Assembly: GCA_012523355.1 (NCBI GenBank)
Contig: JAAYIR010000050.1
Span: 1 to 37,444, forward strand
Direction of reading: 5' to 3'
DNA from: a candidate division WS1 bacterium
Lineage (GTDB): Bacteria > Armatimonadota > Zipacnadia > Zipacnadales > Zipacnadaceae
DNA: 37,444 nucleotides
Part shown: positions 7,529 to 28,114 of the stretch, piece after piece
How the letters are laid out: every line of letters starts with the position of its first letter
Position numbering within the stretch: position 1 is the first letter of the stretch
Position numbers and translations under genes: made by a program
Notes under the pieces: model-generated
What the model saw: only the letters and a program-made list of their open reading frames with translations
Databases searched by the model: none
Told to the model about the DNA's origin: nothing

Positions 7529-8398
7529 TCACCCGGCTACCGGCGCGTCGCTGGGGACCGACTGGGGCCTGGCCCGCGGCGCCAGGCCTCCGGGCGGGGT
7601 CAGGGCTTGTGCCTCCAGCAGCGATCTGATCCGTCCCACCCAGTCGTCGGTCACGAGTGATTCGTAACCCGGCCGCACCACCACGACTTGCCTTAGCCCC
7701 GGCGCAACGGATCCTCCCCAGGCCGCCACCGGCCCGGTGTACAACACACGGGCGGGGAAGGCTTGCTGTATGGTCTGAGCGAGACTTTCCAGCACAGGCT
7801 GGAAGCTTTCCGCTGCTTCCTCGCTGGTCAGTGGGACGAGCAGCTCGAAACTGGCTTCGGGCGCGGGGTATACCGAGACAGCGGTTATTCCCCCGTTGGG
7901 GAAGTACTGGCGCTTACCGTCTGGAGTTTCCAGTACCGTCACACGGAAGCTGAGGCTCAATACACGCCCGAAGACCCCGTTGAGACTGACGTAATCGCCC
8001 TCGGTGTACTGCCCCTCCAGGAGCATGAACATTCCCGTGACCAAGTCCTTGACCAGCGATTGCGAACCGAAAGCAATGAGGGCGCCCAGAAAGCCCACGC
8101 CGGTGAGCACGGGGAGAGGATTGATGCCGATGGAGATGAGCACATACAGCAGCGCCAGCAGTAGCACCGCCCAGCGTAGGAGGCTGGCGATCACCGAGAT
8201 GGAGCTGACCATGGGACGCAGACGCGGGGCGGAAAGGCCGCCGATCTTCTCCATGCGGCGCTTCAGGCGCCTCTCGAAGAAGAATATGATGAGATACAGG
8301 ATCGCCGCCAAGGCGACGACACCAAGAACGGCGGCCAACTTGGCGGTCCAGCTCCCTGGCTCAGCAGCCTGTTCCAGCAGCGCTTTCCAGAAGCTCAT
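7529..8398 (-). CDS. Small-conductance mechanosensitive channel (MscS family)
   Basis: 289 residues from the ATG at 8398, which has a GGAG Shine-Dalgarno; a TTG 27 bases upstream is a weaker start. Inner-membrane channel releasing solutes on hypo-osmotic shock. Three hydrophobic helices at about 18-42, 66-90 and 94-120; the pore helix shows GVGFLGALIAFGSQSLVKDL with the alanine/glycine pattern of the family, followed by the beta domain (GDYVSLNGVFGRV) and the C-terminal alpha/beta cage. Length is like the basic MscS, with no extra sensory domains. The C-terminal 20 residues are proline-rich. It appears monocistronic; no strong promoter was found. Confidence 0.92.
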   Translation of the reverse strand: MSFWKALLEQAAEPGSWTAKLAAVLGVVALAAILYLIIFFFERRLKRRMEKIGGLSAPRLRPMVSSISVIASLLRWAVLLLALLYVLISIGINPLPVLTGVGFLGALIAFGSQSLVKDLVTGMFMLLEGQYTEGDYVSLNGVFGRVLSLSFRVTVLETPDGKRQYFPNGGITAVSVYPAPEASFELLVPLTSEEAAESFQPVLESLAQTIQQAFPARVLYTGPVAAWGGSVAPGLRQVVVVRPGYESLVTDDWVGRIRSLLEAQALTPPGGLAPRARPQSVPSDAPVAG

Positions 8399-8524
8399 GA
8401 TCAGCCACTCCGGTGTTGCTTTCAACGACGGGCCGTGCGTCTCTCAGTCTAAGATCTACCCGGCCGAGATGACACCGCTAACACTATTCGCGGAGTCTGA
8501 GCGTAGTGCGAGAGTGTGCTTGGG

Positions 8525-9583
8525 CTAGTACTGCCCGTACTTGTGCACCAGTTCCATTACATGTTGATACTGGGCAAAGCTCACGTTATCCGGGACGGAG
8601 TGGTCTGAGTGGTAGATGTACCCACCGCCCACCTTGGCTGCGCCGATCTTGGTGCGAATCTCTTCCTCGATCGGACTAGGGTCGGGCAAGGCCATCTTGC
8701 GGACGTCAATGCCGCCCATGAACGCGAGGACGTTGCCGTACTGTTTTTTCAGTTCGATAAGGTCCATCCCGGCCTTGACCTCCAGGGGCTGTAGACAGGC
8801 GAGACCTGCCTCGATGAGGCCGGGGATAAGCTCCTTCACGCAGCCGCAGGAGTGGAGAATGCACTTCAGGCCATGGGCCTTGGCGCAATCGTACAGGCGT
8901 TTGTGGTTGGGGAACTCAAAGCGCCGGAACATCGCCGGACTGAAGAGGCTCGCGTTACGGTAGCCCATGTCATCATAGGCGAACACCCCGTCCAGTTGGA
9001 CACCGGCGGCCAGGGTCTCCTCCAGAGCAATGCAACAGTGTTCGGCCCGGGTGTCGAACATGTCCTGGACCCAGTCGGGGTCGGTGGCCATGGCGGTGAG
9101 CAGACGCTCGGAACCGACAAGCGCCTGGATACCGTCGTAGCCGAAGATGCTGCTAAGGTAGAACCACTGGCCCGTCTCGCGACAGCGGGCCTCGGTCTCG
9201 CGGATGGACTGGAGGTCCAGACGATCGGCGGACCATTCCAGACGTGGCTTGTGCTCCTCCCATAACTCGCGGGTCGTGATGGTGAAGTCAATGCGCTCGG
9301 GTGTGGAGGTCATATGCTTCCAGTTCTTGTAGAGCGCGCCGTTGGCGTCGCGGACGATAACGTAGTCCTCCGTCTCCTCGACCGTTTCCTGGAGGAAACG
9401 GAAGCTGAGATCGGCGCCGACGCCCACCATTTCATAATGGAAGAAAGCGGCAGGGTCTACACCCTCCGGCAAGCCTTCTTTGTGCCAGCGTTCGATCGTC
9501 GTGCCCCAGGGGGAGTCGTGAAGAGCGATGCGGTCCGCTTCCTGGTGATCGAGGGCCAGAGCAATGCGTTCTTTGGAGGTCAT
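8525..9583 (-). CDS. Uroporphyrinogen decarboxylase-like protein (UroD/MtaA superfamily), copy 2
   Basis: 352 residues, with an AAGGAG ribosome site in front of ATG 9583. The barrel contains FAYDDMGYRNASLFSP and LKCILHSCGCVKELIPGLIE. Unlike the other two copies in this window it keeps cysteines right after the histidine (HSCGC), as in the zinc site of cobamide methyltransferases, followed by LQPLEVKAGMD and a C-terminal DHSVPDNVSF. A methyl-transfer role is therefore possible, but no corrinoid protein or activase is seen nearby. Downstream on the same strand is mscS, about 130 bases away; upstream is the PHP phosphatase gene. Confidence 0.82.
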   Translation of the reverse strand: MTSKERIALALDHQEADRIALHDSPWGTTIERWHKEGLPEGVDPAAFFHYEMVGVGADLSFRFLQETVEETEDYVIVRDANGALYKNWKHMTSTPERIDFTITTRELWEEHKPRLEWSADRLDLQSIRETEARCRETGQWFYLSSIFGYDGIQALVGSERLLTAMATDPDWVQDMFDTRAEHCCIALEETLAAGVQLDGVFAYDDMGYRNASLFSPAMFRRFEFPNHKRLYDCAKAHGLKCILHSCGCVKELIPGLIEAGLACLQPLEVKAGMDLIELKKQYGNVLAFMGGIDVRKMALPDPSPIEEEIRTKIGAAKVGGGYIYHSDHSVPDNVSFAQYQHVMELVHKYGQY

Positions 9584-9601
9584 GGAAGAAGCTCCTTGGA
9601 C

Positions 9602-9614
9602 GTAGGGGCAACCC
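9602..9614 (+). repeat. GTAG-headed short palindrome (REP-like), element a
   Basis: GTAG followed at once by GGG-CAA-CCC. It faces element b (9640-9658, minus strand), so the 57-base block 9602-9658 begins GTAGGGG and ends with the near-complement CTCCTAC, like a paired REP (BIME) arrangement. The stem is only 3 bp, so on its own this is weak. Confidence 0.35.
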
Positions 9615-9639
9615 TGTTCTCCCTCAAGCGCTACTTAGG

Positions 9640-9658
9640 ACAGCAGGCCCGCTCCTAC
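9640..9658 (-). repeat. GTAG-headed REP-like element b, overlapping a stop codon
   Basis: On the minus strand the sequence CTGTAGGAGCGGGCC begins at the last codon of the PHP phosphatase gene, so the TAG of GTAG is that gene's stop. The same 11-mer CTGTAGGAGCG recurs at the end of the esterase gene (26547-26557). It resembles the GTAGGAGCGGGC head of known pseudomonad REP elements, though the second stem arm is degenerate. Confidence 0.45.
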
Positions 9659-10371
9659 AGGTTTTCGCCGCTAAGAATCTTTCGGGGATATTCCTCCGTG
9701 ACTTGCTGAAACCTCTTCTCGCCTCCCAGGCCGCGGAAGGCCCGCCGAGCGACAGAGAGCAAAGGCGGCCGTTGCCGGGCATCATGCGCGTCGGTCGCCA
9801 GCACGCAATGCTCCACCTCGCGCAGGAAGCGTAGGGCCGTGGTGCGGGCTGGTCGGCCCCAGCGCCCGGCCACACTATCAGCGTTGAGTTGGAGCGGGCA
9901 GCCGCGTTCCGCCAGCTCCAGGAGGAGGTTCGGGTTTCGGTGAGCCAGTTGAGTGCGCTCGGGATGGGCCAGGACGGGTTGAAGACCTTTCACCTGCAGC
10001 GAAAAAACCAGTTGTGGTAGGTAGTCGGGTAGGCCGGCGAGCGGGACTTCCAGCAGCACATAACGGCGTTGCTCACCGAGGAAGGGTAGAGCCTGTGCGT
10101 GTTCCAGAGCCTCCCAGACAGCGGGGATTTCCGCGCCTGGAAGTATCTGCACGGCCAAGCCCGCGGTCGCCACTACCTCCTGGACTTGCTCCACACGAGC
10201 GGGGATAGACTCGGGGTGTGCGAGGTCCTCAAAAGAAAGGTGTGGGGTGGCAACGATGGTGGAGATGCCGTCGCCGAGAGCGACCCGGGCCATGTCCAGG
10301 ACTCCCTCGACACTTGCGGGGCCGTCATCAGGTGGCACGCGAAGAAGGATATGGCAGTGGAGGTCAATCAT
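9655..10371 (-). CDS. CpsB/YwqE-type PHP-fold tyrosine-protein phosphatase
   Basis: 238 residues from ATG 10371, which opens directly with MIDLHCHIL; an upstream in-frame start would add an unaligned tail. The PHP metal motifs are in order: D3-H5-H7, ATPH (about 41-44), GAEI with its glutamate (about 78), LAHPERTQLAHRNP and the late DAHD. CpsB/YwqE enzymes are manganese-dependent and dephosphorylate bacterial tyrosine kinases controlling capsule export; a histidinol-phosphatase role is the main alternative in the same superfamily. The usual CHILPGIDDG reads CHILLRVPPDDGP here, a two-residue longer loop. No tyrosine kinase or capsule export gene is visible next to it. Confidence 0.82.
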   Translation of the reverse strand: MIDLHCHILLRVPPDDGPASVEGVLDMARVALGDGISTIVATPHLSFEDLAHPESIPARVEQVQEVVATAGLAVQILPGAEIPAVWEALEHAQALPFLGEQRRYVLLEVPLAGLPDYLPQLVFSLQVKGLQPVLAHPERTQLAHRNPNLLLELAERGCPLQLNADSVAGRWGRPARTTALRFLREVEHCVLATDAHDARQRPPLLSVARRAFRGLGGEKRFQQVTEEYPRKILSGENL

Positions 10372-20928: not shown

Positions 20929-21899
20929 TGAGAATGCGGCGCGGACACGCGGGGGTTCTTTGTGTGCTGGCAGTCCTGAGCCTCCTGCCACTGGTCACGG
21001 CAGTAGCGGCCGAACAGCAGCACCGGTTGGTGGCGCGCGACTTCCGACTCTACTACTGGACGGGGCAAGAGGCAACGGCGGAGGCCGTGACCCAGGTAGC
21101 AGAGACCTCTCTGCCGCGGCTGCGGGAGATCCTGGGGCTGGAGCAGAGTGAGCGAATTGACCTGTACCTTGCGCGCACTGGTGAGGAGTTCAGGCAATTG
21201 ACCGGAGGCTCTGATCCCACTCGTGTGCTGGGCGTGGCTCTCCCCCAGCGGCGAATCGTGGTACTTCAGCCGATGCGCGGCGCGTTCCTGCGGGACCTGG
21301 TGGCACATGAGCTGACCCATGTGCTGCTGATGGACCGCGTCGGCAACCTCGAACTGCCGCGCTGGGTGCATGAAGGGGTGGCGAAGTATGCGGCAGGAGA
21401 CTTCAACCCCAATGATCGGGCGATCCTCATCGAGGCCATCAACCGTGGTGGCTTCATTCCCCTCGAGCGGCTGGAGGCGGCCTTCGAAGGACCACCGGAG
21501 CAGGTGAGCCTGGCCTACGCGGAGGCCTATACGCTGGTGGAGTTCCTGGCCGGGCGGCATCCTCAGGAGGGGCTGGCGCCCTTCCTGCGTGAACTCCAGG
21601 CCGTGGGTGACCCCTCGCGGGCGCTGCTGCGAGCGTATGGGTTGACGGCCGCGGAGATTGGGCAGCACTGGCAACAAGTGGTGTGGACGGAGTACCTGGG
21701 TAGGAGTAACGTGGAGCAGGTGACGCCGCTGATCTGGGCGGGGATGGTGGTTTTGTTCCTGGTGGTCTTCTTGGTGAACCTGCGGCGCCGGGCGATCATT
21801 CGACGTCGTCTGGAGGCGGAAGAGGAAGACGGGATGCACGGAATGCAGGACGCAAGGGGACGCTATGCCCGAAGGCGGCATCACCGGTTCAAAGACTAA
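20928..21899 (+). CDS. Membrane-anchored gluzincin metallopeptidase (peptidase MA-like)
   Basis: 323 residues from GTG 20928, which overlaps the preceding stop (GTGA) and has GGGAGAGG five bases upstream; ATG 20934 is an alternative. A signal peptide (about 1-28) is followed by an N-terminal domain and the zinc motif HELTH (127-131) with the third ligand E149 in WVHEGVAKYA, typical of the peptidase_MA-like family. One transmembrane helix near residues 265-288 and a basic, then acidic, tail suggest the catalytic domain faces the periplasm. Position with an exported TPR protein suggests a shared envelope role. Its TAA overlaps the convergent stop of the LigD-type gene by three bases. Confidence 0.84.
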   Translation: MRMRRGHAGVLCVLAVLSLLPLVTAVAAEQQHRLVARDFRLYYWTGQEATAEAVTQVAETSLPRLREILGLEQSERIDLYLARTGEEFRQLTGGSDPTRVLGVALPQRRIVVLQPMRGAFLRDLVAHELTHVLLMDRVGNLELPRWVHEGVAKYAAGDFNPNDRAILIEAINRGGFIPLERLEAAFEGPPEQVSLAYAEAYTLVEFLAGRHPQEGLAPFLRELQAVGDPSRALLRAYGLTAAEIGQHWQQVVWTEYLGRSNVEQVTPLIWAGMVVLFLVVFLVNLRRRAIIRRRLEAEEEDGMHGMQDARGRYARRRHHRFKD

Positions 21900-22501
21900 T
21901 CCGTGTCCTTCAATTCCTCGATCGTCTTGCCGCTGAGGACGGACTCGGGACGCGCATTCACGACGTCCTCCTCCGGGTCCATCTCCTGATCCTTGCTGCT
22001 CTTGATGAGCAGCCAGTTCTTGGGGTTGCCGCCCAGCTTGCTGTTGATGAGCGCGAAGCCTCCACGCAGCTTTTGTCCTTCTAACCATACGAGGAGGTGA
22101 CCGCGCTCGAAGGCCTCTTCCAGAGATACATCCTGTCCGTGCCGCGGACCGTCGTTCCGGAAGGTGCCGCGGTCCCAGAGCAATACGGTGCCCGCGCCGT
22201 ACTCTCCCTCAGGGATGCTCCCTTCGAAGTCCGCATATTCCAGGGGATGGTCCTCAGTGGCTACGGCCAGGCGTTTGTCGGCAGGATTGCCGGAGGGGCC
22301 TTTGGGAACAGCCCAGGATTTGAGCGTGCCGGCAATCTCTAGGCGAAAATCCCAGTGCAGACTGCGGGCCGCGTGCATCTGTACGACGAATATGGTCTCC
22401 GGGGACTTGTGCTCGGAGGATTCGCCGGCAGGTTCGGGCGTGCGGTCGAAGTCGCGCTTATCGCGGTAGGTGCGGAGGGCGTCGTGGGCAGGTTTCTTCA
22501 T
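21896..22501 (-). CDS. Stand-alone LigD-type 3'-phosphoesterase domain protein
   Basis: 201 residues. The phosphoesterase (PE) module of bacterial ligase D trims 3'-phosphates and ribonucleotides at breaks before end-joining. It has FVVQMHAARSLHWDFRLE (38-54), in which H43, H49, D51 and R53 match the catalytic set; LKSWAVPKGPS; H85 in EDHPLEYADF; and IPEGEYGAG with WDRGTF. The polymerase and ligase parts of LigD are not fused to it. The polymerase part is the gene at 24456 on the opposite strand. The first 30 residues are charged and probably flexible. Confidence 0.9.
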   Translation of the reverse strand: MKKPAHDALRTYRDKRDFDRTPEPAGESSEHKSPETIFVVQMHAARSLHWDFRLEIAGTLKSWAVPKGPSGNPADKRLAVATEDHPLEYADFEGSIPEGEYGAGTVLLWDRGTFRNDGPRHGQDVSLEEAFERGHLLVWLEGQKLRGGFALINSKLGGNPKNWLLIKSSKDQEMDPEEDVVNARPESVLSGKTIEELKDTD

Positions 22502-22651: not shown

Positions 22652-23128
22652 TTACAGGCGGAAGGACACGACAGCCGAGATGCCGACGCCGTCCACGCCC
22701 TTCACGCTGGAGGTAAGGTCGCGGTCGGTCGTGACCGGCACCAGATAGCGTCCGCGGAACTCGCCGGGGGACCACTCGATCTGCGCTACCGCCCTCACAG
22801 TCTTGACCTGGGCTTCTGGTCCCATGACCTGCGCCGCGCCCACGGCCGTGCCGCCGCCGACGCCGACGTTCAGGATAGGCACTACCTTGGTCATGCCCTG
22901 GACACCCAGCTCACGCTGGTCCAGGAAGTTGTTGATGGCGTTGTTGATATCGTTGCTGAAGTGTGAGACGACCCAGCCAATCCCGAAGACTTTGAGCAGG
23001 TCGCCGAGCAGGCCACTGAAGAGATTCAGAGCGTGGGCCTCAGTTGTGGCCCAGGGCATCAGGCCGGCGAGAAAGCACACCGCAATCAACAGCGCCAGGA
23101 TCTTGTGTTTCTTCTCCGTGCGGTACAT
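22652..23128 (-). CDS. Secreted protein sharing a C-terminal domain with its upstream neighbour
   Basis: 158 residues from ATG 23128, eight bases after GGAGG; the first ATG at 23134 lies only two bases from it. An N-terminal hydrophobic segment (ILALLIAVCFLAGLMPW) acts as signal peptide or anchor. A helical region rich in Asn (FSNDINNAINNFLDQREL) follows. The last 75 residues align with the end of the upstream gene: VPILNVGVG, VGAAQVMGP, VRAVAQIEW, YLVPVTTDRDL and GVDGVGISAV. No family is recognised. Its ribosome site overlaps the previous stop codon (TAAGGAGG), so the two are coupled. Confidence 0.7.
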   Translation of the reverse strand: MYRTEKKHKILALLIAVCFLAGLMPWATTEAHALNLFSGLLGDLLKVFGIGWVVSHFSNDINNAINNFLDQRELGVQGMTKVVPILNVGVGGGTAVGAAQVMGPEAQVKTVRAVAQIEWSPGEFRGRYLVPVTTDRDLTSSVKGVDGVGISAVVSFRL

Positions 23129-23141
23129 GGTCATATCCTCC

Positions 23142-24266
23142 TTAGCGCACCACCCGGATGTCGGCCAGACCAGTCAGGCCGACGCCCTGGACGCGCGATA
23201 GCTTGCTGAGGGACTGCGTGTCGATGGGCACGTAGACGTTGATGGTGGCAGCCTTTTGAAAGGTGAACTCCAACTGGGCCACGGCCTCGACTTGGTGAAC
23301 CAGAGAATACGGCCCCTGGACTTGTGCCACGCCAACCCGAACCCCGCGCAAGACACTGAGTACGGGCACGAGTTTCTGATCATAGCGTTCAGCGGGGGTC
23401 CAGGTCTCGCCCGGGGTGGAGCTGATCGGGGCCTCACCGTAGAGAGCCTCGCTCAGGCCATACAGCCAGGTGTCGGCCAGACGCTGAGGCGTGAGGTCCC
23501 GCCGGTCAGCCTCCTGTTGGTTGGCCGTGATCAACGTGGTGTCGCCTGCCACAACGGCCCACACACCGTCAACTTGCCTGGCGACCAGCTCGCGGCGCTG
23601 CAGGCCCTGGTCAAGAGCCTGGTTGAGGCGCCGGGTCACCGCGTCGGCGCGCTCATAGGGGCTGAAGCCGCCGGCCGGAGTCCAGATCTGCATGGCTGTT
23701 GCCTCGCCAATAAGAACTACCGCAACCTCCTGGTTGTTCACCGTCTGGAGTTCAGCCCTGATCGGGGGTCGAGGAAATCCTCCACCGTAGGCCTCAAGGG
23801 CAGTGGCGATGGCTGTAGCCCATGCTTGCGCCAGAGACGCGGGAGTCGTGTACTGCGCCGCAGCCTCCTCCCCGCTGGCGGTGGCAATCAGGACATTCGC
23901 CATCCGCACGACGGCCTCGTTGCCGTGCATCTCCCAGTAGACCTGCGGGCTGCCGGCGCCAAGGGCCAGTGCCTGCTGCAGCCTTCCGGCGATCACCTCC
24001 GCTCGCTGAGCAGGCGTGGCGCCTGTCGTGGCGGCGCGCAATTCCACGACGGTCTGGTTGTCAATCTTCACCACGCCGCGCTCCTGGTCGCCCACCATTT
24101 GTCTCTCCCAGGTGATACCGGGAGAATTCGCTACCTCATCCGCCCAGGCTACGGGAGTGATTCTCAGCGGGGTAGCATTGCGCAACGCTATCCCGGCAGC
24201 GAAGGCGCAGACACACACCAACACTCCTGGTAGCCATCTGCGCCAACTGAATTGGCGTTTTCTCAT
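23142..24266 (-). CDS. Secreted protein with two internal repeats and shared C-terminal domain
   Basis: 374 residues from ATG 24266 with GGAGAGGAG upstream; the open frame to 24602 is not needed. The signal segment WLPGVLVCVCAFAAGIAL (11-28) is followed by two copies of a roughly 95-residue unit. Copy 1 (67-158) and copy 2 (177-276) both show a VV strand, TPAQRAE or SPYERAD, an RLxQAL helix, a later AVV strand and TPxxLAxxW. The TPAERA-x-RL helix resembles periplasmic domains of some mechanosensitive channel relatives. Residues 297-374 match the C-terminus of the next gene. Function unknown; probably periplasmic or surface. Confidence 0.72.
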   Translation of the reverse strand: MRKRQFSWRRWLPGVLVCVCAFAAGIALRNATPLRITPVAWADEVANSPGITWERQMVGDQERGVVKIDNQTVVELRAATTGATPAQRAEVIAGRLQQALALGAGSPQVYWEMHGNEAVVRMANVLIATASGEEAAAQYTTPASLAQAWATAIATALEAYGGGFPRPPIRAELQTVNNQEVAVVLIGEATAMQIWTPAGGFSPYERADAVTRRLNQALDQGLQRRELVARQVDGVWAVVAGDTTLITANQQEADRRDLTPQRLADTWLYGLSEALYGEAPISSTPGETWTPAERYDQKLVPVLSVLRGVRVGVAQVQGPYSLVHQVEAVAQLEFTFQKAATINVYVPIDTQSLSKLSRVQGVGLTGLADIRVVR

Positions 24267-24415: not shown

Positions 24416-24455
24416 TCTTGGCTGATCGGTGGCGGCCAGAGGAGGCAATGATGTT

Positions 24456-25373
24456 GTGAGTGGAAAGAAGAGGCAAATCACGGTCGCGGACCAAGAACTG
24501 ACTGTGTCCAATCTTGACAAAATATTCTACCCGGCTACGGGCTTCACCAAGGGCGACGTGATTGACTACTACCTCGCCATTGCCCCGCTGATGATGCCGC
24601 ATCTGGTCGGGAGGCCGATCAACCTCAGACGCTACCCCGATGGCGTGGAGGGCGAGTCATTCTTCCAGAAGGAGTGTCCTCTCCCGGGTCCGGAGGGGGT
24701 GACCATTTCTCCACGGTATAGCGAGTACAAAGACGACGAAGTTAACTACTGCGTAATCCAGGATGCGGCGGGATTGGTGTGGGTGGCGAATCTGGCCTCC
24801 ATTGAGGTGCACACCTACCTGGCGCGTGCCAGCAACTGGGAGCGGCCGACGCAGATGGTCTTCGATCTGGACCCTGGCGAGCCAGCAGGGCTGCTGGACA
24901 GTGCGCGTGTTGCCCTGCGGCTGCGGGAGGAACTGGCAGAGATGGACTTACAGGGCTTCGCCAAGACCTCCGGGGGAAAGGGGATACACCTCGCGGTGCC
25001 ACTCAACACGTCGGTTACCTATGAACAGACGAAAGAATTCGCCCGGGCCTTGGCGGGGCGTCTCGCGGATGCGGATCCCGAACACGTGGTGATGAACATG
25101 CGCAAGGACCTGCGAGAGGGTAAGGTGTTGGTGGACTGGAGCCAGAACGAAGTACACAAGAGCACGGTCTGTGTTTACTCTTTGCGGGCGCGGGAGCGCC
25201 CAACCGTCTCAACGCCGCTCGCCTGGGAGGAACTGGAGGAAGCAGTGGACCAACAGGAGGCCCGGCGGGTGGTCTTTGAAGCGCAGGAGGTCCTCAAACG
25301 GGTGGAGAGACTTGGGGACCTGTATAAACCCGTGCTGAAGCTGCAACAGAAACTGCCGAAAATGACGGACTGA
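24456..25373 (+). CDS. Stand-alone LigD-type NHEJ polymerase (primase-polymerase domain)
   Basis: 305 residues from GTG 24456, ten bases after GGAGG; the frame also opens at 24429. The archaeo-eukaryotic primase fold polymerase of bacterial NHEJ fills gaps with ribonucleotides. VSNLDKIFYPATGFTKGDVI (17-36) is the usual N-terminal entry, QKECP at 71-75, the metal-binding FDLDP has D137 and D139, TSGGKGIHLAVPL (171-183) binds the nucleotide, and the third acid is D227 in LVDW. All catalytic residues look intact. Ligase and phosphoesterase modules are not fused, and no Ku gene is in the window. Confidence 0.93.
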   Translation: MSGKKRQITVADQELTVSNLDKIFYPATGFTKGDVIDYYLAIAPLMMPHLVGRPINLRRYPDGVEGESFFQKECPLPGPEGVTISPRYSEYKDDEVNYCVIQDAAGLVWVANLASIEVHTYLARASNWERPTQMVFDLDPGEPAGLLDSARVALRLREELAEMDLQGFAKTSGGKGIHLAVPLNTSVTYEQTKEFARALAGRLADADPEHVVMNMRKDLREGKVLVDWSQNEVHKSTVCVYSLRARERPTVSTPLAWEELEEAVDQQEARRVVFEAQEVLKRVERLGDLYKPVLKLQQKLPKMTD

Positions 25374-26641: not shown

Positions 26642-28114
26642 TCACAAACCGCGGTCCTCGAACCTGAGGCTATACAAGTCGGCGTCGGAGAGCACCACTC
26701 GCAGGCGGACAGGCCTCCCGGCCAAAGCGCTCACGTCGGGGCCGGACTTCCACTGCACCGTGTAGTCCAGCGTGTCGCCGATGATGTCCCAGCAATCGTC
26801 CAGGGCATAGCCGGGGAGGGATTGTCCCGCGGCGTCCTGAAGCTCTACCCGCGCGTGTCCGGCGGCGGAAGTGGAAATATTGAGTGAGAGGCGACGGCCC
26901 GCGAAGGTCAGCGGCTTGGTAAGCATCTCACCCCCGGATAGGGGCGCGCAGAGAGACACAAAGCCGTCAATCCGCAGCGTGAAGCGCCGGAAGGCCGCCA
27001 TCTCGCGCCGCCAGTAGCCCTCGCTGGCGTAGAAGGAGAGCTCCTTCTCGCCGCCGGGCAGGGCCGAGTCGGTCTCCAGCATCCCCCAGGCCACGTAGTT
27101 GTCCCCGTAGGTCCAGTTACCCTCTGATCGCAAGCCTGGACGGAGAAAGGCCTCGCCCCAACGGCGGAAGCTCAGCCCGTCGCGGCTGGACATGAACAAG
27201 GCGTCGGTAAGAGCAGCCCCATAGCGTGGGGACTTCCCGGCACGCAGGCGGCGGTGCTCTAGCTCGGGCAGCGCCTCGATGGAGGAGGACCACTCGCGTT
27301 CGACATAGCGGGTAGGTAAGCCTAGCCACAGATGTGCCGCACGGTAGTAAGACGCGACGCCATTGGTGTAGAGCTGCTCGAAGGGGGCGCCGGGGTACTC
27401 CAGGACGATGGGCTCGCTCCAGGTGCGCAAGTCGGGGGAAGTGGCGGTCATGATGGTGCGCCCCCCGGCATACGGCCTCTCCGTCCAGTGGCGGAAGTAG
27501 GCGCGGTACTCGCCGCGCAGGGCGTCCCACTGCACCGTGTTGTGCGAGTCGAGGGCGTAACCGGAGAAGAGTGGATTCGCATCTGACAGGCTCCAGCGTA
27601 AGCCGTCCGGTGAAGTGAGCAGGTACAAACCTTTCTCGGTGTGCGCCCAGCCGCCGCCAACAGCCTTCCAGCGTTCCGTCGGCGGGCAGTCAGGGTTGGC
27701 GTCCAGGAAGGGCGAGAAGCCGTGAACCCCCCACAGTTCCTCGCCGTCGCCGAGCCAGACGATGTTGTTGGCCCCCTGACCCTGGTACGCGTATAAGTCC
27801 AGTTCGGGGCGCTCCCAGTGGAGGCCGTCCTCGCTCTCAGCCACGCAGATCGCCGGCGGGTGCTCCGCGGCCTCGTCGGGCTTTTCGGTGGTGAGGTCGA
27901 GAGCCCACGCCGTGTAATAGAGGCGGAAGCGATCCCCTACGCGGAGGACGGTGGGGTAGCTGAGCATGTTGCCCTCCCAGGGGCGCTCGGACCGGAGGAC
28001 AACCTCCTGCGGCACGGGATGATGAAGCCGAAGCCCAACATTCTCAAGGTGGTCGAAGAGGAAATCGTCTACCAGTAATTCGCGACGGCTGCCAAGATCA
28101 AGGGGAGCAGGCAT
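26642..28114 (-). CDS. Cytoplasmic GH32/43-like five-bladed beta-propeller protein
   Basis: 490 residues, ATG 28114 with CCGGAGGA upstream, no signal peptide. It opens with RRELLVDDFLFDHLENVGLR, typical of a large uncharacterised group in Planctomycetes and Armatimonadota, then shows repeated blades with the pattern aromatic-YY plus SEDGLHWERP, SPDGLRWSLS, SPDLRTWSEP and SRDGLSFRRWG. These SxDGxxW units are typical of glycoside-hydrolase-like propellers (GH32/43/130 clans). Catalytic carboxylates cannot be assigned with confidence. A C-terminal beta-sandwich (about 370-490) ends with YSLRFEDRGL. It follows larA by 45 bases and is probably cotranscribed. Likely carbohydrate-related. Confidence 0.72.
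   Translation of the reverse strand: MPAPLDLGSRRELLVDDFLFDHLENVGLRLHHPVPQEVVLRSERPWEGNMLSYPTVLRVGDRFRLYYTAWALDLTTEKPDEAAEHPPAICVAESEDGLHWERPELDLYAYQGQGANNIVWLGDGEELWGVHGFSPFLDANPDCPPTERWKAVGGGWAHTEKGLYLLTSPDGLRWSLSDANPLFSGYALDSHNTVQWDALRGEYRAYFRHWTERPYAGGRTIMTATSPDLRTWSEPIVLEYPGAPFEQLYTNGVASYYRAAHLWLGLPTRYVEREWSSSIEALPELEHRRLRAGKSPRYGAALTDALFMSSRDGLSFRRWGEAFLRPGLRSEGNWTYGDNYVAWGMLETDSALPGGEKELSFYASEGYWRREMAAFRRFTLRIDGFVSLCAPLSGGEMLTKPLTFAGRRLSLNISTSAAGHARVELQDAAGQSLPGYALDDCWDIIGDTLDYTVQWKSGPDVSALAGRPVRLRVVLSDADLYSLRFEDRGL

Follow-up and report, generated by a model that had tools for sequence, protein, structure and literature searches.

The closest described counterpart of the genes considered here lies in Veillonella parvula. 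According to the available part of an outer-membrane proteome report (PMC5491611), Vpar_0645 and Vpar_0646 turned up in the outer-membrane fraction and among surface-exposed proteins, and their genes lie upstream of that for the LptD homologue Vpar_0647; the authors found no homologues of the two proteins and proposed that they act with the Lpt system or as equivalents of LptE. It is the only paper that we found on the locus tags Vpar_0645-0647. LptE is the outer-membrane lipoprotein partner of LptD, and the place beside LptD that the same part of the report proposes for Vpar_0645 and Vpar_0646 (PMC5491611) is possibly equivalent to that of LptE. Then, how does a pair of unnamed exported proteins from the Armatimonadota compare with these genes?

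The pair, termed A and B here, is encoded on contig JAAYIR010000050.1 of a candidate division WS1 bacterium (GCA_012523355.1; Armatimonadota, Zipacnadaceae), and "the window" denotes the whole stretch of 37,444 nucleotides that was analysed. An earlier note, made from the letters of this DNA, had described two secreted open reading frames with coupled stop and start, and both the reading frames with their coordinates (Table 1) and the TAA-GGAGG junction are confirmed in the sequence. A is upstream of B, and the GGAGG follows directly behind the TAA of A. The spacing from this GGAGG is 2 nt to the ATG listed as the start of B (23134) and 8 nt to a second ATG in the same frame (23128), and one relative of B (L003) starts at the position equivalent to the latter. 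Therefore, B probably starts at 23128, which gives a protein of 158 aa. The signal peptide of A, as judged by eye, would be cleaved at AWA-DE. In the AlphaFold model of B (mean pLDDT 79), the signal helix and the long helix are followed by five strands within residues 81-159. In the model of A (pLDDT 86), the two alpha/beta units come after a signal helix and are joined, by a linker of low confidence around residue 285, to a five-strand domain as in B. Over residues 48-73, the hydrophobic moment of the B helix is 0.36 (mean over 32 homologues) against a shuffled mean of 0.16; since 54 of 5000 shuffles equalled it, the helix is graded as moderately amphipathic.

Table 1. Features of the A-B gene pair, in positions of the window.
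Feature	Position	Strand	Description or basis
Gene A	23142..24266	minus	374 aa; signal sequence, then two alpha/beta units of ~110 aa, a linker and the shared C-terminal beta domain
Gene B	22652..23134	minus	160 aa; signal sequence, then a long conserved amphipathic helix and the shared beta domain
Unit 1 of A, residues 49-161	23784..24122	minus	unit profile 49-159, iE 4.8e-28; alignment with unit 2
Unit 2 of A, residues 166-278	23433..23771	minus	unit profile, iE 1.8e-40
Shared C-terminal domain of A, residues 298-374	23145..23375	minus	alignment and profile; modelled five strands and short helix
TAA stop of A and GGAGG, likely ribosome-binding site of B	23137..23144	minus	read from sequence
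Predicted long helix of B, residues 42-73	22916..23011	minus	AlphaFold model
Shared C-terminal domain of B, residues 83-160	22655..22888	minus	alignment, model, profile comparison

The C-terminal domain of A had been said to match the end of B, and alignment statistics bear out the homology of the two. Residues 298-372 of A and 83-160 of B share 37% identity over 78 columns (BLASTP E 2e-9), their Smith-Waterman score is 98 against a shuffled mean of 26.7 (SD 4.5), with none of 5000 shuffles as high, and the profiles of the two domain families align with an hhalign probability of 99.4 (E 1e-20). Among the common motifs claimed, VPxLxV, VGxAQVxGP, VxAVAQxE and VxGVGxxxxxxxR are present, whereas YxVPxxT is approximate only. 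The remark that no family is recognised for the domain stands for Pfam and NCBIfam: neither A nor B matched a family in NCBIfam or in Pfam (E up to 10), and 33 homologues of A and 32 of B gave only scattered weak Pfam matches, each confined to one or two members. In addition, profile searches of PDB sequences returned nothing credible, and Foldseek searches of the PDB with both models gave no match at E 0.001 or better. B nevertheless belongs to a widespread family, whose Veillonella member is, to judge from gene order and size, a protein of the outer-membrane proteome.

The internal duplication of A is also confirmed, by a shuffle test of residues ~61-161 against 178-277 (score 106, shuffled mean 30.6, none of 5000 shuffles as high) and by a unit profile that places the copies at 49-159 and 166-278. 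Two units are present in 4 of the 33 aligned A proteins (that of the window, L033, L035 and L040) and one unit in the other 29; two other genomes of the window's genus (L034, L048) have one unit each. Single-unit relatives align to unit 2 of the window's A. The unit is also found in many other exported proteins of Armatimonadota, and it had no clear structural match in a second look at the models. Another lead, that the unit is the outer domain of an MscS channel, was rejected, since the unit profile, searched at E up to 10, matched none of the ORFs at 30 MscS loci of relatives. An MscS-type mechanosensitive-channel gene occurs in the window itself at 7529-8425, and an ORF of 490 aa in the window, at 26642-28114, matched nothing in Pfam at E 0.001. 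A second unnamed exported family of about 590-850 aa begins with one A-type unit and ends with a conserved GSNYP/GSAYP-like stretch; it was seen in the same phylum at L203, L204, L206, L207, L208, L209, L211, L212, L213, L214 and L220. At another locus (L294, 2415-3272 and 4199-5158), tandem paralogues that carry an A-type unit behind a lipoprotein-like signal flank a pilin-like gene.

A search with 32 aligned B proteins showed that 262 of the 391 candidate stretches from named genomes encode a relative of B, whereas a single A sequence searched against the contigs of named genomes found no relative. The best 80 of the 262 were kept; they belong to Armatimonadota, Negativicutes, Synergistaceae and "ANGP1", or come from bins that carry only Bacillota or "bacterium" as a title. 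The Negativicutes carriers are Veillonella, Acidaminococcus, Megasphaera, Dialister, Negativicoccus and Pectinatus. At the level of genomes, a B match is present in 238 of 291 Armatimonadota (those listed for G265 and G235 contain stops), in 60 of 100 Synergistota and in 7 of 249 Bacillota, the phylum of Veillonella; one of these 7 is the centre of the draw, and the counts ignore relatedness. All 7 are among the 64 Bacillota genomes with an Omp85 match. The other 57 of the 64 have no B match, which rules out B as a marker of every outer membrane, and B is therefore not essential to having one. In a tree of 66 B proteins, grouping by phylum is stronger than in shuffles; the deep branches are weak, and 21 rows fall in no named group.

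What adjoins B outside the Armatimonadota? In 8 of 12 named Negativicutes loci (L125, L126, L127, L131, L135, L137, L139, L141), B is followed by a protein of about 400 aa and then by an OstA/LptD-type protein; the row is absent at three Acidaminococcus loci (L111, L118, L121) and one of Pectinatus (L140). Among seven further loci from the Bacillota draw, the ~400-aa family was found within 1.5 kb of B at L187 only, which is from the same Veillonella genome. The window's B and the Veillonella homologue align over residues 1-160 with 39% identity (E 8e-24; profile E 9.7e-42). Full-length homologues of B head, in Veillonella, a three-gene row of ~3.3 kb like that of Vpar_0645; the row measures 3.30 kb here, and the region given in the available part of PMC5491611 is 3.26 kb. 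By gene order and size, the Veillonella B is Vpar_0645, as far as that part of the report describes it. Unlike Vpar_0645, the window's B adjoins A and LigD genes, with no LptD-type gene. Pfam LptD_N matched the Veillonella LptD-type protein at 3.2e-4, above its cut-off, and that of a Synergistaceae locus below the cut-off; the Negativicoccus protein (L131) had no LptD_N match. At the latter locus, a secretin gene lies two genes past the LptD-type gene in the same orientation (9022-10248). In the ANGP1 locus (L105), the ORF beside B matches the LptD-type profile at 9.6e-13, with a Pfam match below the cut-off.

The ~400-aa partner, of the type of Vpar_0646 (L126, 5547-6728, and relatives), has a conserved glycine-rich C-terminal part, and its members at L126, L131 and L130 matched nothing in Pfam. 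It adjoins B in 11 of 12 Synergistota loci, one of which is the centre of the search. The family, mainly its C-terminal part, is also present in 108 of 291 Armatimonadota genomes, but none of the genomes listed for it is of the window's genus or family. At L289, a gene of this family stands just before B, and a single-unit exported protein stands before that.

Within the best 80 B loci, A adjoins B in 51 (50 by a stricter adjacency rule), always on one strand, with A first in 40 and B first in 11. The two genes are separated by 3-34 nt in 40 of the 51 and overlap in the other 11, some probably through a misassigned start. Moreover, three genomes of the window's class (G248, G249, G250) have these parts in one protein: one or two units, a domain of the shared type and, after it, a second, B-like segment. 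This second segment matches the helix and domain of B at iE 2.6e-8, 6.8e-4 and 7.1e-7, the weakest of which is marginal on its own. These genomes have no clear separate B, the only match in G248 being at E 0.0085. The earlier note had supposed that the two proteins assemble together; one-strand adjacency in both orders and the three fusions speak for this, and physical binding is what we infer from them.

Where A is lacking, another neighbour recurs. Twenty Armatimonadota loci, none showing an A unit, were hand-picked across families from the table of B matches, and in 11 of them (L296, L297, L300, L303, L304, L306, L307, L309, L310, L312, L313) B lies directly downstream, on the same strand, of a gene like those of the OmpM/SlpA outer-membrane tethers; in the other 9 this neighbour is absent. 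These genes were recognised with four BLAST references, of which L106 and L293 have SLH matches, L133 and L293 have a sub-threshold match to the SlpA barrel, and L104 has no Pfam match; note that L313 is, to judge partly by its match, the same record as L133. A and B themselves differ from such tethers, as they have no SLH match and their models contain no barrel of that size. Genes for lipopolysaccharide assembly are also found. At L312, an OstA/LptD-type gene stands on the side of B opposite the OmpM/SlpA-like gene; at L134, B is followed by an OstA/LptD-type gene (profile 9.4e-138, L134 itself being in the profile; Pfam matches below the cut-off); and at L292, which is, to judge partly by its neighbours, the same record as L106, LptF/G, an ABC ATPase and an LptC-domain protein lie beyond the SLH protein near B. 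LptD_N-domain proteins are present in 28 of 31 genomes, including the window's own. In the window, no outer-membrane gene adjoins the A-B pair. B occurs across Armatimonadota, Synergistota and some diderm Bacillota with recurring LptD-type or OmpM-like neighbours.

As far as can be read from sequence, A and B are a conserved, unnamed envelope pair with homologous domains and natural fusions. Because the B family adjoins outer-membrane-building genes in related two-membraned bacteria, the pair probably helps to build or support the outer membrane, with the proviso that this link is drawn from gene neighbourhood and neighbourhood is not function. More specifically, B would be an exported accessory of outer-membrane assembly in diderm Terrabacteria, and A its partner in the Armatimonadota, a reading that we regard as about evenly poised. 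B would reside in the periplasm or on the inner face of the outer membrane, where its long amphipathic helix, joined to the compact five-strand domain, may rest on the membrane or on a partner. There it would work beside outer-membrane beta-barrels. In Negativicutes and Synergistota these would be the LPS translocon of the LptD type, and in Armatimonadota tether porins resembling OmpM/SlpA, with LptD as well in places; help with barrel assembly would be the simplest common ground between LptD and OmpM. In A, a flexible linker would connect the B-type domain to the exported alpha/beta units, of which there are one or two. The two proteins would be made together and probably bind each other through their related domains, so that B would help to assemble or hold barrels and A would bring extra units via the linker. 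For the species of the window, we infer the location, the A-B contact and the role in assembly or support. A further step, which we put forward tentatively, is that the B family is of old origin and serves LptD and OmpM barrels as an accessory that is not a lipoprotein, and that the A-B pair is an Armatimonadota elaboration, with a duplicate of the domain placed on a periplasmic adaptor. A comparison with LptE has its limits, as B has no Pfam match to LPS assembly and is also found beside OmpM-like genes; a conserved lipobox cysteine was not seen by eye in the 32 aligned B proteins, and the model of B shows no barrel of its own.

The same observations could be arranged differently. A and B may form a complex, secreted or at the surface, that has a role of its own, such as in a surface layer, adhesion or polymer binding, with outer-membrane genes nearby through general clustering of envelope genes. 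The export signals on both proteins, the many loci where B has no outer-membrane neighbour and the detection of Vpar_0645 in the surface-exposed fraction as well, in the available part of PMC5491611, are consistent with it. However, B adjoins two specific kinds of genes, LptD-type and OmpM-like, in separate phyla and in conserved order, and its presence in most genomes of the phylum is, in our judgement, broader than expected of an adhesin; we therefore hold such a complex to be rather unlikely. The flanking genes in the window offer another association. As the earlier note had it, the pair is enclosed by split LigD genes, and Pfam confirms both of them: LigD_N, a phosphoesterase, at 21896-22501 on the minus strand, and Prim-Pol, a primase-polymerase, at 24429-25373 on the plus strand. 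The adjacency in the window could tie the pair to LigD and end joining, but both A and B carry export signals and no LigD gene was seen in the neighbourhoods of homologues read by eye. Consequently, the enclosure looks coincidental, and a functional tie to LigD is highly improbable.

The fold of the common domain bears on a third reading, in which this domain is of the YbbR type (PF07949) and the pair serves a membrane enzyme in signalling or regulation, in the way that YbbR/CdaR partners the c-di-AMP synthase. In the structural second look, a YbbR protein was the top row for both models (Z 5.8, rmsd 3.5, 73 aligned; Z 5.2, rmsd 3.4, 71 aligned), where a Z below 8 may, by the warning of the tool, reflect merely a common arrangement. 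The next rows include ribosome chains around Z 3, in what we take to be the L25-type position. The B domain aligned to 29 YbbR domains of relatives with an hhalign score of 21.3 (maximum of 100 shuffles, 12.9), and with more sequences the score was 23.7 (maximum of 150 shuffles, 14.1); the alignment covers 72-73 columns with the conserved Gly-Pro region in register and stands above all column shuffles, whose maxima span 10.5-14.1, although the hhalign probability is just 13-24. The A domain alone scored 7.4 and 11.7, which is inside the shuffle range. The common domain may thus be a distant YbbR-like fold, to judge from this weak similarity of model and profile. Differences remain, since the profile alignment needs a gap of about 7 residues before the Gly-Pro region, YbbR is absent from the Pfam matches of the 33 A and 32 B homologues (E up to 1), and B adds the long helix and A the alpha/beta units. 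In addition, the window's genome has a separate, clear YbbR protein, and no diadenylate cyclase was recognised beside the pair. A role as signalling partner seems improbable to us.

The available text of PMC10665443 leaves open whether non-homologous proteins take the place of the outer-membrane lipoproteins that V. parvula lacks (LptE, BamB-E). The available part of PMC5007114, the only paper that we found on Armatimonadetes with an outer membrane and LptD, describes no clear LptD/E in diderm Firmicutes. The link of B to the outer membrane suggested here is new beyond the earlier sequence-only note, Vpar_0645 itself having been placed in an outer-membrane proteome before, in the part of PMC5491611 available. 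The assignment also provides a family for a protein of 238 of 291 Armatimonadota genomes, whose member in the window matches no Pfam or NCBIfam model. Small, unnamed and kept beside LptD-type or OmpM-type genes in several phyla, the B family is a concrete candidate for the missing components, and if the reading is true, it would be a stand-in for lipoproteins such as LptE or BamB-E. The main interest of the pair thus lies in the B family as a candidate outer-membrane accessory in Terrabacteria.
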